Below are positions 3,677 to 63,530 of a stretch of 64,000 bases of DNA, piece after piece; position 1 is the stretch's first letter; each line of letters starts with the position of its first letter. Position numbers and translations under genes: made by a program. Origin of the DNA: Nocardia goodfellowii (GTDB lineage Bacteria > Actinomycetota > Actinomycetes > Mycobacteriales > Mycobacteriaceae). The notes under the pieces are model-generated. The model did no database searches, was not told the DNA's origin, and was given only the letters and a program-made list of their open reading frames with translations. The stretch is taken from assembly GCF_017875645.1 (NCBI RefSeq), contig NZ_JAGGMR010000001.1:6510001-6574000 (forward strand), given 5' to 3'.

Positions 3677-4276
3677 TCACTGGACGTCGCGCCGTAGCGA
3701 GTCGATCATGCCGAGCGCGATCTGGCCGGCTTCGCGGCGCACCTGCTCGTCGTTCGTTTCGGCGAGGCTCCAAGCCAATTCGGTGAGCAGCCCGTACACG
3801 GCTCGGACGGTGAGTTGGGGCGATCGGGGCCGGAAGACGCCCGCGCGGATCAACTCGTCGACCAGATCGCGGATCAGCCCGACCATGTGGCGTTCGTCGA
3901 GTTCGCGCCAGCGGGCCCAGCCCAGCGCGACGGGACCTTCCTGCAGCACGATCCGCTGATAGGCCACGTCGGTGCATTCGTCGAGGAAGACGTTCAGGGC
4001 TCGCACCGCGGTGTCCCAAGGGTCACCCGGCGCGCCGAGCGCCGTGGTCAAACGCTCGGTCAGCTCCTGCTCGACCTGCTCGAAGACGGCCTCGAAGAGT
4101 CCCTGCTTGCCGTTGAAGTGGTGGTACACGGCGCCGCGCGTCAGGCGGGCGGCGCCGGCGATCTCATCGGCGGACAGGTCCGAGTACTTCCGTTCGATGA
4201 ACAGGCGGCGGGCCGTCGCCAGCAGAGCGGAGCGAGTGGCTTCGGCGTATTCCGCACGTCGTCCCTTGACAGTCAC
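3677..4276 (-). CDS. TetR family regulator divergent from amine oxidase
   Basis: This is a 199-residue repressor. The HTH comprises ATRSALLATARRLF, YSDLSADEIAGAARL and TRGAVYHHFNGKQGLFEAVF, a textbook TetR N-terminus. The C-terminal half resembles the QacR/AcrR-type ligand domain with several Trp and aromatic residues. The GTG at 4276 (MTVKGRRAEYAEATR) gives a normal TetR length; the frame is open further upstream but would run into the divergent oxidase promoter. Intergenic dyads at 4296-4328 are probable operators, so it likely represses both itself and the oxidase-lipase genes on the other strand. Confidence 0.85.
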   Translation of the reverse strand: MTVKGRRAEYAEATRSALLATARRLFIERKYSDLSADEIAGAARLTRGAVYHHFNGKQGLFEAVFEQVEQELTERLTTALGAPGDPWDTAVRALNVFLDECTDVAYQRIVLQEGPVALGWARWRELDERHMVGLIRDLVDELIRAGVFRPRSPQLTVRAVYGLLTELAWSLAETNDEQVRREAGQIALGMIDSLRRDVQ

Positions 4277-4291
4277 AGCAACCAGGCTACA

Positions 4292-4328
4292 TTGACATAC
4301 ACCATGTATCTCAGATGTTAGGTGTATG
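4292..4328 (+). promoter_or_regulatory. promoter and TetR operators before amine oxidase gene
   Basis: TTGACA at 4292-4297 is a consensus -35; ATGTTA at 4315-4320 can act as a -10 with 17-bp spacing, which would start RNA close to the ATG at 4326 (near-leaderless). CATACACC (4296-4303) and GGTGTATG (4321-4328) are a perfect inverted repeat, and ATACA-CCA-TGTAT lies at 4297-4309 inside the spacer. A repressor bound here would cover the -35. Confidence 0.55.
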
Positions 4329-5687
4329 CGAATGTCGGATCGCAGGGACGTGCTCGTAGTCGGGGCCGGGGCGGCAGGGCTGACGGCAGCGCGGGTCCTC
4401 GCCGCGGCGGGGCGCGATGTCGTGGTGCTCGAGGCCCGCGAGCGCGTCGGCGGGCGTACCCACACCGTCGCGATACCGGACAGCACCGGCTATGTGGAGG
4501 TCGGCGGCATGTGGGTGGGGCCGGGCCAGGATCGGGTGCGGGCCTTGCTGACCGAACTCGGGTGCGCCACCTACCCCACGCATGATCAGGGCTCGAAGAT
4601 CGGCGAATTCGGTGGCCGCGTCACCCGCTACCCGGGCCGGATACCGCGCCTGAACCCGTTGGTGCTGGCCGACATCGCCCGCACACAGCTGCGCCTGGAC
4701 CGATCGGCCCGGCGCGTGCCACTGTCCGCACCGTGGACGGCGCCGCACGCCGCGGAACTCGACGCGCAGACCTTCGACACGTGGCTGCGCGACAATTCCC
4801 ACACCTCGACCGGACGCGCGTTCTTCCGGCTGATCACCCAGGCGGTCTGGTGCGCCGAGCCAGCGGAGATGTCGGCGCTCTGGGCGCAGTTCTACATCCA
4901 TGCCGGCGGCGGCGTCGACTCCTTGATCAACACGACCGGCGGCGCACAGCAGGATCGGGTCGTCGGCGGCGCGCAAGGGCTGTCGATCGCGATGGCCGAG
5001 GACTTGGGCGACCGGGTCGTCCTCGGCACGGCGGTGACCGAGATCGACTGGGGCGGTGACAGAATCGGCGTCCGAGCCGGTCGGCGGCAGTGGTGGGCGC
5101 GACACGTGATCATCGCGGTTCCGCCGCCGCTGGTGCAGGGCATCCGGTTCACCCCCGACCTGCCCGCCGAGCGCGCCCAACTGCTGCAACGCCTGCCGAT
5201 GGGCTGGACAATCAAGGTCAACGCGGTCTACGACGAACCGTTCTGGCGCGCGAGGGGGCTGTCCGGGCAGGCCAACAGCGACCGGCGCGCCCTCGGCACG
5301 GTTTTCGACGCGGGCCCGCCGAGCGGCGAACCCGCCGTCCTGGCCGGATTCCTCGAAGCCGGCCACGCCCAGACGGCGGCGCGCCTGGCGCCGGAACAAC
5401 GTCGCGCCGCGGTACTCGACGACCTGGCGGCGTATTTCGGCCCCGAGGCCCGCGATCCACGCCACTACATCGAACGGGATTGGGCCGCCGAACCTTTCAG
5501 CCGCGGCTGCTACGGCGCGTTCGCGACGCCCGCGACGCTCACCCGCTTCGGCCCCGAACTGCGCCGCCCGACCGGCGCGTTGCACTGGGCCGGCACCGAA
5601 ACAGCCACCCGCTGGGCCGGTTACATCGACGGCGCGATCGAATCCGGGCAGCGCGCCGCCCGGGAAATCCTCGAACGTCCTGAATGA
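4326..5687 (+). CDS. flavin-dependent amine oxidase
   Basis: This 453-residue FAD enzyme oxidises a primary or polyamine to aldehyde, ammonia and hydrogen peroxide. The N-terminus has the FAD dinucleotide motif VVGAGAAGLTAA (about 11-22) and EARERVGGRTHT. The C-terminus has LHWAGTETATRWAGYIDGAIESGQRAA, the second FAD motif of the monoamine oxidase family. SRGCYGAF around Cys395 lines up with the SGGCY segment of mammalian MAO, whose Cys binds flavin covalently. The substrate is unknown. The lipase gene follows 35 bp downstream; the divergent TetR at 3677 probably controls it. An alternative start is the ATG at 4332. Confidence 0.85.
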   Translation: MRMSDRRDVLVVGAGAAGLTAARVLAAAGRDVVVLEARERVGGRTHTVAIPDSTGYVEVGGMWVGPGQDRVRALLTELGCATYPTHDQGSKIGEFGGRVTRYPGRIPRLNPLVLADIARTQLRLDRSARRVPLSAPWTAPHAAELDAQTFDTWLRDNSHTSTGRAFFRLITQAVWCAEPAEMSALWAQFYIHAGGGVDSLINTTGGAQQDRVVGGAQGLSIAMAEDLGDRVVLGTAVTEIDWGGDRIGVRAGRRQWWARHVIIAVPPPLVQGIRFTPDLPAERAQLLQRLPMGWTIKVNAVYDEPFWRARGLSGQANSDRRALGTVFDAGPPSGEPAVLAGFLEAGHAQTAARLAPEQRRAAVLDDLAAYFGPEARDPRHYIERDWAAEPFSRGCYGAFATPATLTRFGPELRRPTGALHWAGTETATRWAGYIDGAIESGQRAAREILERPE

Positions 5688-58277: not shown

Positions 58278-58559
58278 TCAGCAGTTTCGTTCGTCGGACC
58301 CGTCACCACAGTCATCGTCGCCGTCGCACAGCCATTGCTTCTGCACACACCTGTCGTTATCGCATTTGAATTCGTCCGGCCCGCACAGGCGCAACCCACT
58401 GTGGCATTCGCTGCGCGCTGCCCCTGGGCCGAAATCGAAGGACATCAGCGTCTCAGGGTTGACCGGGGCAGCGGATTCGGCCATCGCTGGCGCCGACACC
58501 AGTGTCAGCCATATCGCGGTAGCCCCCAAAGCTGTCGCAAAGACGGAAACGACACGCAT
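58278..58559 (-). CDS. secreted protein with LDL-receptor class A domain
   Basis: A 93-residue exported protein. A signal peptide ([20 protein letters not shown], cleavage after Ala27) is followed by a short linker. Residues 59-93 hold all six Cys of an LDLa repeat (59, 66, 71, 78, 84, 93), the Phe before Cys2, WLCDGDDDC and the calcium-binding Asp/Glu of DGSDE. Such domains are common in animals and rare in bacteria. GGAGG seven bases before the ATG and an intact stop support a real gene. It probably binds calcium and a partner outside the cell. Confidence 0.85.
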
Positions 58560-58697
58560 GCAGAAACCTCCGTAGTGAGATTCGGTCAGGTACGGAAATT
58601 CGGTATCCAGCACAGAATCGAGCGCTTGTCCTGCCCAGGATCGCACACTCGATCGTCGAATCGACGGAGGCCGACATGCCGAAGGCGGGGTCGACTA

Positions 58698-62142: not shown

Positions 62143-62490
62143 CTAATCGTCGATGCCGCTGCGATGGGAGTCGGACTCGCCCGATCCATCGTCGCCCCGG
62201 TTGTCTGCACTCCTCGAAGACTCCTTAGTGCCGGCCCCACTTTTGCCTTTGCCCTTTCCCTTGCCTTTGCCCTCGCCCTTTCCCTTGCCCTTTCCCTCAC
62301 CGCCGTCCTCGCTCGGCGCGCCGCCACCCGAGGCGATAACCGACCCCTGACCGAAATCGTGCAAGATGGGCTCTGCCGCCAGCGCCGACGAGGGTGCCGG
62401 ATTATGGCCAAGCTGGCCCGTGGCCCCTGGGGCGGACGCGGCCAGCACCCCGGCCGCAACGAACACCCCGACAATGACTCGCTGAATCAT
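62143..62490 (-). CDS. exported Lys/Gly-repeat protein
   Basis: A 115-residue protein. A signal peptide (VIVGVFVAAGVLAASAPGATG) precedes a short linker and a strongly basic GKGKGKGEGKGKGKGKGKSG tract at about 65-85, then an acidic Ser/Asp-rich tail (DDGSGESDSHRSGIDD). The Lys-Gly tract is intrinsically disordered and might bind nucleic acid, polyphosphate or acidic polysaccharide. It is divergent from the ribosome-recycling-like gene. The start has AGAGAGGAACC. Confidence 0.65.
   Translation of the reverse strand: MIQRVIVGVFVAAGVLAASAPGATGQLGHNPAPSSALAAEPILHDFGQGSVIASGGGAPSEDGGEGKGKGKGEGKGKGKGKGKSGAGTKESSRSADNRGDDGSGESDSHRSGIDD
62236..62300. repeat. 6-bp-periodic low-complexity tract
   Basis: The Lys-Gly codons of the preceding gene form about ten tandem six-base units of the GGCAAA/GGGAAA type (CCTTTGCCC on the plus strand), a hexanucleotide microsatellite that could change length by slippage without shifting frame. 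Confidence 0.7.
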
Positions 62491-62693
62491 GGTGGTTCCT
62501 CTCTCACTGGTGGAGCGGCACGACCGATCAACCGATCCAGCCTAAGAGTGACGAGCAACCGAGTCCGACACCCCTGACCACACGGCGATTCCGCGATGAC
62601 CGTCCTGGGCACGATGAAGAGCATCACGGAGCACCGCGTTACGCTGCAGCCAAGCGGGTGAAGATCATGAAGACAGGTTGTGAGGGCGGCGAC

Positions 62694-63530
62694 GTGATCA
62701 GCGATGTACATAAAGAAGCTGTCATCCTGGCCGGTGACCGCTACACGCAATTTTCGAACGCGTTGTCGGCATTGCTGGGGACGGGTCCGCTCGACGACAT
62801 CGTGGTGGAGTACGCCGGGATGAATGTGCCGCTGCCGAAGTTGGCCGAGGTCGATACCACAGGGCCGATATCCTTGATCGCCGCTTTCGACAATGCGGCG
62901 GGTGACGCGATTCGAGATGCCCTCGTGCGAGCCGGTTTCCGGGTTCGCATCTCCGCGAAGATCATCAGAGTCACGGCGCCACAGTCGGATCCGCGAGAAC
63001 AGATCGCGAGAATTGCGGAGCATGCCCACAAGGCCCGCTGCGACGTACGCGACGTGTATGAACACCTCACCGGGCGGTGCCGTCTACTCTTGGCCGACGG
63101 GACATTCAGCGCGGACGAAGAGCGCCGCACCCGACGGGCGATCCAGCGTTTGACCGATATGACCATCAGCAATATCGATCTCGACGCGACCAGGTTCATG
63201 GCCATGGCGAAGGGGCATCGTCCTGTGCCGTTGGACGACGCCGATGACTGGGAACTCGCCAGGTTTGCCGATACCTACGACGGCTATGCGGCATTCGATG
63301 ACGACCCGATAGCACGGGGCCGGGCAGTCCAGCAGGTGCGGCGGTTGTGGGACGAGACGGGCTTGCTGTCGAACGACTTGAATTTGCTGCGTACGTGCCT
63401 GTTCCTCGAAGTAAAAGCGCATCGGCGGCGCGGCGGCGGCCGACCGTTGAGCGAACAGCCTTTTGTCCGCGCTCTGGTAACCCGAATCAGGGACGTTTCA
63501 GGCGGCACCGTGCTCTGGGACGATTTGTAA
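62694..63530 (+). CDS. ribosome-recycling-factor-like protein with C-terminal extension
   Basis: A 278-residue protein. With the GTG at 62694 (GAGGG seven bases before) the start MISDVHKEA lines up with classical RRF, as do LDDIVVEYAG (34-42), PLPKLAEV (46-53), AFDNAAGDAIRDAL (64-77), IIRVTAP (90-96), CDVRDVYEH (116-124) and DGTFSADEERRTRRAIQRLTDMTI (135-158). Arg119 matches E. coli Arg129, but Arg132 and Arg133 are Tyr122 and Glu123, and the IRTGRASP loop is about four residues shorter. About 100 extra residues (180-278) follow. It is not the housekeeping frr: no tsf, pyrH or cdsA nearby. Confidence 0.7.
   Translation: MISDVHKEAVILAGDRYTQFSNALSALLGTGPLDDIVVEYAGMNVPLPKLAEVDTTGPISLIAAFDNAAGDAIRDALVRAGFRVRISAKIIRVTAPQSDPREQIARIAEHAHKARCDVRDVYEHLTGRCRLLLADGTFSADEERRTRRAIQRLTDMTISNIDLDATRFMAMAKGHRPVPLDDADDWELARFADTYDGYAAFDDDPIARGRAVQQVRRLWDETGLLSNDLNLLRTCLFLEVKAHRRRGGGRPLSEQPFVRALVTRIRDVSGGTVLWDDL

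Follow-up and report, generated by a model that had tools for sequence, protein, structure and literature searches.

Ribosome recycling factor (RRF), the product of frr, is represented by the profiles PF01765 and TIGR00496. Its residue Arg132 contacts 23S rRNA. In a human mitochondrial complex, domain III of EF-G2 touches RRF at the RRF hinges, as stated in the excerpted text of that study (PMC8203779). The effector-associated domains (EADs) of bacterial conflict systems are depicted in excerpts of two further articles (PMC7159879, PMC8195603) as small, mostly helical, terminal domains joined to varied enzymes. Here we describe a protein of Nocardia goodfellowii in which a divergent RRF-like head is fused to a C-terminal module. 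Its gene lies in a stretch of 64,000 nucleotides that was analysed as a whole and is called the window below. The gene, its parts and its neighbours are as follows:

62694..63530, plus strand: open reading frame of the RRF-like two-domain protein, 278 aa, with a GTG start and a TAA stop (63528-63530); a MISD/MIND start is common to most relatives
62682..62685, plus strand: GAGG, a likely ribosome-binding site as read in the sequence, 8 nt 5' of the GTG
62694..63215, plus strand: RRF-fold part, residues 1-174 (helical bundle and beta/alpha domain)
62772..62795, plus strand: LLGTGPLD, residues 27-34, in place of the RTGRASP loop (four residues deleted)
62979..62996, plus strand: PQSDPR, residues 96-101, the second hinge, which in normal RRFs is PxLTEERR and three residues longer
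63057..63062, plus strand: Tyr122-Glu123 at the positions of E. coli Arg132-Arg133
63216..63527, plus strand: C-terminal mobile module (residues 175-278), modelled as mostly helical, of no convincing known family
62143-62490, minus strand: upstream ORF, divergent to the RRF-like gene
from 63551, minus strand: convergent downstream gene for an HTH_31/DUF5753 regulator, then a Methyltransf_19 gene

Flanked by a divergent ORF upstream and a convergent gene downstream, the RRF-like gene stands alone by position, and a consensus scan found neither a sigma-70-like promoter nor a terminator at it. A sequence-only reading of the window had noted that this is not the usual tsf-pyrH-frr setting. The genome bears this out, as its strong RRF gene sits elsewhere: the 7.98-Mb genome contains a normal RRF at C1:3312817 (220.6 bits), and visual inspection alone of the frames upstream of it suggested pyrH and the end of tsf. 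An RRF match was found in all 301 family genomes searched, and only three had two, namely the genome under study, G341 and G178. The second RRF of G341 looks like one gene split over two contigs, and a weak match in G019, considered as a second RRF, looked unrelated by eye. G178, from another genus of the family, has a weak RRF-like stretch with a stop (L058, on C82; 22.5 bits). Elsewhere in the window (58278-58646, minus strand), a small protein that appears by eye to be secreted carries an LDL-receptor class A domain (PF00057, 50.7 bits), a domain better known from animals.

The head proved to be an RRF homologue, as first read. It matched the Pfam RRF profile over residues 31-162 (49.8 bits, E 4.6e-13, above the cut-off of 29.7), and E. 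coli RRF aligned to residues 1-162 (E 6.3e-13). In an AlphaFold2 model it is predicted to adopt the RRF fold, the best fold matches being solved RRFs. An absent profile match or an unrelated fold had been named as grounds for abandoning the homology, and both profile and predicted fold match RRF. Among the structure matches was PDB 1ise, by its title an Arg132Gly mutant of E. coli RRF. The score against the equivalog profile TIGR00496 was 47.5 bits, below its cut-off of 149.1. About 104 residues follow the RRF part, close to the further 100 that had been counted originally.

Most of the residues that are near-invariant in RRFs are missing from this head. Eight divergent rows, comprising seven full-length proteins and one RRF-only relative (L007), were aligned with a yardstick of 47 distinct normal RRFs, which is lopsided in that 38 of the 47 are actinobacterial. 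Forty-five columns were at least 95% conserved in the normal RRFs; the window protein keeps 12 of these, and four are kept by all eight divergent rows. Sixteen columns held a basic residue in 95% or more of the normal RRFs; the window protein keeps five of these and the other divergent rows three to six. As a control, six normal RRFs were scored, each against a yardstick built without it, and kept 15-16 of 16-17 basic columns. Net charge failed to separate the two sets (window protein 0, other divergent rows -9 to 3; normal RRFs -4.9 on average, range -9 to 1).

Ten columns are absent in all eight divergent rows. They form four gaps, which remove RTGR (four columns), one Arg, a DL pair and three columns of the TEERR hinge, leaving that hinge three residues shorter and altered. 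One of these gaps is the shortened IRTGRASP loop already picked out in the sequence-only reading. The LLGTGPLD found at this site is identical in all seven full-length proteins and not in L007, and a second block, TYDGYAA, is also invariant in the seven. The Arg132 column holds Tyr, His or Gly in every divergent row. In the window protein the alignment places Tyr122 there and Glu123 at the position of Arg133, both as originally called, and Arg is retained at the Arg129 position. For mutational data on Arg132, we found no usable paper.

The loss of 11 of the 16 near-invariantly basic positions, RTGR and Arg132 among them, likely weakens normal rRNA contact and, as judged from the alignment, speaks against a normal ribosome-binding mode. 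Residue loss alone, though, demonstrates the loss of neither ribosome binding nor recycling. The sequence-only reading had proposed that the protein may bind ribosomes differently, in dormancy, antibiotic protection or translation control, or may bind a non-ribosomal target. The head might still enter the RRF site of the 50S subunit without being driven by EF-G; under control of the module, it would there either prevent recycling or shield idle ribosomes. Such a ribosome-occupying regulator would fit both the overall RRF shape retained in the model and the second hinge, which is short in all eight divergent rows, EF-G2 domain III touching RRF hinges in the excerpted complex (PMC8203779). The same missing basic positions count against it, and we consider it an unlikely reading, if one to be taken seriously.

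Relatives of the whole protein are few. A search of 5.8 billion proteins gave 10 matches at E 0.001 or better, of which six are Nocardia proteins of full length, with 56-94% identity and each called ribosome recycling factor at source, and four have ordinary RRF length (E 3.3e-6 to 1.5e-4). Two of the six (P0002, P0005) come from one strain, NPDC050712. Members of the family come without a functional description, in keeping with the early impression of an uncharacterised family. Within the genus, six of 150 genomes gave a match at E 1e-11: the whole protein occurs in two (G000, the genome under study, and G115), a very diverged RRF part alone in G125 (L007; Pfam RRF 15.2 bits, below the cut-off), and the C-terminal part alone in three (G056, G114, G027). 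A looser search of 148 genus genomes at E 0.001 gave 19 matches, 13 of which (L009-L021) cover the RRF part only and were read as ordinary RRFs. It also turned up short remnants of the C-terminal module (L023 1501-1638 in G011; L024 1501-1614 in G115), which suggest gain and loss of the module within the genus. A first scan of genome contigs, in a set from which records near the window are possibly absent, confirmed zero relatives; a second gave one locus, which reads as the normal RRF of a metagenome-assembled genome (MAG).

A phage or plasmid gene was considered as a source and rejected. All tblastn matches (eight plasmid and nine phage records) are confined to the RRF part, 47-58% of the query, with identities of 23-33%. 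Those that carry an annotation are frr, and one of them also touches pyrH. A conserved operon was likewise rejected, as zero neighbour genes are common to G000 and G115, the two loci compared; by heuristic gene calls, they share no other protein within about 10 kb. With a 5.4-kb DNA query (best 2 of 173 candidates scored), one G115 match fell inside the gene (query 4093-4908), and a second, on another contig, was an unrelated piece of the flank.

In a tree of 35 rows (the eight divergent rows and 27 of the 47 normal RRFs), the divergent rows formed one side of a branch (100/100). The placement of L007 is unsure owing to its very long branch (2.13) and odd composition. The tree does not single out a normal RRF as parent of the divergent rows, because the branch between divergent and normal rows is long and that of L007 longer still.

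Rarity and patchiness of this degree, with the full gene in two of 150 genus genomes, could mark an accessory gene that is decaying or dispensable and has no settled function. The module remnants L023 and L024 and the very long branch of the RRF-only relative would agree with this. Comparison of the window gene with that of G115 over 274 codons, however, gave dN 0.26 and dS 0.81, a ratio of about 0.32, which argues against free decay, at least as a simple count that ignores codon bias. The ratio is lower C-terminally (0.208/1.089) than over the first 165 codons (0.296/0.678). As there are also seven full-length open frames, in all of which LLGTGPLD and TYDGYAA are invariant, we regard decay as improbable.

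Does the protein work with an EF-G of its own? Two strong EFG_III matches occur in 24 of 148 genus genomes, and both carriers of the full-length protein have a second EF-G (G000, C1:2040203 and 2050830, L097; G115, C2:342895 and 354254, L098). It is 70-75% identical to the main one and lies 10-11 kb away, near the str operon, and both carriers also have duplicate EF-Tu-like genes, as read by eye. The RRF-like protein could then be a specialised recycler whose partner is the diverged EF-G and not the normal EF-G. Four of the six genomes with an E 1e-11 match (G000, G115, G056, G114) have two EF-Gs (hypergeometric 0.007), a pattern noticed after the fact. The main EF-Gs of G000 and G115 are 97% identical, which makes these genomes close relatives, and the co-occurrence may therefore be ancestry. 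Twenty of the 24 two-EF-G genomes, moreover, lack an E 1e-11 match, a single EF-G is present in G125, which carries only the RRF part, and in G027, which carries only the module, and the hinge that would meet EF-G is cut down. A specialised recycler is on these grounds quite improbable.

The C-terminal module, modelled by AlphaFold2 with a short lead at a pLDDT of 90.7, is not private to this protein. It had initially been described as a novel C-terminal extension; it is indeed uncharacterised, but the domain is present in hundreds of other proteins, where it stands alone or is fused to other partners, and a private extension is therefore rejected. A five-row profile of the module found 37 proteins at E 0.01. 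A wider 26-row profile, which takes in two matches of the first with E above 0.001 (P0046, P0047), found at least 279 at 1e-4 (7997 candidates scored). Among the 120 matches listed, 98 are 86-160 residues long and 22 are longer than 200, so the module is mostly stand-alone. Whole genomes seldom contain it: it was found in six of the 394 genomes searched in the class and in 11 of the 396 searched in the phylum, where no more than 11-12 candidates per genome were scored. Thus, the module is widespread and uncharacterised, and has an existence of its own outside the RRF-like protein.

No convincing relative of the module emerged from Pfam, NCBIfam, PHROGs or the PDB. The C-terminal domain of the window protein matched zero Pfam families at E ≤ 1, its best PDB sequence match had an E of 0.26 and its best Foldseek match an E of 2.0. 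When 28 module members were compared with Pfam by hmmscan, no EAD was among the families named. A Pfam scan of 20 module proteins left 14 without any match and gave two sub-cut-off ankyrin matches and one weak hemP match. The module is nevertheless found beside several enzyme domains. It is joined to a trypsin-like peptidase in P0090 (Trypsin_2, 32.5 bits) and to a PTP-SAK phosphatase in P0147 (42.8 bits; longest contig 1.8 kb), and lies in frame behind an ADP-ribosylglycohydrolase in L078 (ADP_ribosyl_GH, 274 bits) and behind a helicase domain in L083 (Helicase_C, 55.6 bits). Each of these fusions is represented by one sequence. The start of a P-loop ATPase beside the module in P0076, a 129-residue fragment, is weak evidence, as it comes from a 544-base contig. 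The stretch behind the module in P0133 matches PDC-S11, a candidate phage-defence model (6.1e-14). In G354, of another genus of the family, genes for the module, an ADP-ribosylglycohydrolase and a metallophosphatase lie within 4 kb (L086 6419-10276); the end of the ADP-ribosylglycohydrolase gene is phosphatase-like (DSPc 32.7 against a cut-off of 33.5).

We tentatively favour, at slightly less than even confidence, an RRF homologue that has been stripped of most near-invariant residues and fused to a module otherwise found with unrelated enzymes. It has likely given up ribosome recycling and would serve as an adaptor. The RRF-shaped head would hold one partner and the module would dock on another. 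With changes in conserved arginines and in the hinge at which EF-G makes contact in a solved complex, the head would be unable to work in the normal EF-G-driven reaction. The lack of matches to enzyme families and the different fusion partners point to protein-protein docking by the module, a role suggested by architecture. The physiological setting is possibly a stress or phage response. Several results count against an adaptor: a homotypic adaptor would lead one to expect a second copy of the module in the genome under study, where none was found (a single match at E ≤ 1, with 150 of 151 candidates scored), the two loci have no neighbour gene in common, and net charge is no different. A bolder version strikes us as doubtful: the module would be an adaptor, so far undescribed, in bacterial networks of conflict or stress, and the protein a translation factor turned into one of its interchangeable heads, a decoy RRF that brings a response to, or off, the ribosome.

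How do the two parts compare with what has been described? The module resembles EADs in being small, mostly helical, terminal and joined to varied enzymes; these include the trypsin-like peptidase and, in the fragment P0076, the beginning of a P-loop ATPase. This tentative likeness is one of architecture: four Pfam-recognised enzyme domains were each seen in a single fusion, and the module itself is presumably non-catalytic. The module differs from EADs in that there is no second copy in its own genome, most listed members stand alone, and no core NTPase gene was noticed beside the RRF-like gene among the gene calls, few of which were profile-searched. The protein also offers a way into a widespread domain, one that at least 279 proteins contain and for which we found neither name nor function.

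In searches of open-access literature for RRF paralogues and second copies, we found no RRF-fold protein that combines such residue loss with this module. The head resembles RRF in its match to PF01765, in its predicted fold over residues 1-174 and in its alignment with the E. coli protein over residues 1-162. It differs in falling below the TIGR00496 cut-off, in having lost RTGR, most of TEERR, Arg132 and the majority of the basic positions, in bearing an extra domain, and in being accompanied by a normal RRF encoded elsewhere in the genome. Although apt for the fold, the public label "ribosome recycling factor" is probably wrong for the function and probably misleads annotation. With the fold kept, the near-invariant residues discarded and a module added, the protein offers a natural test of which features of RRF serve its shape and which serve recycling.
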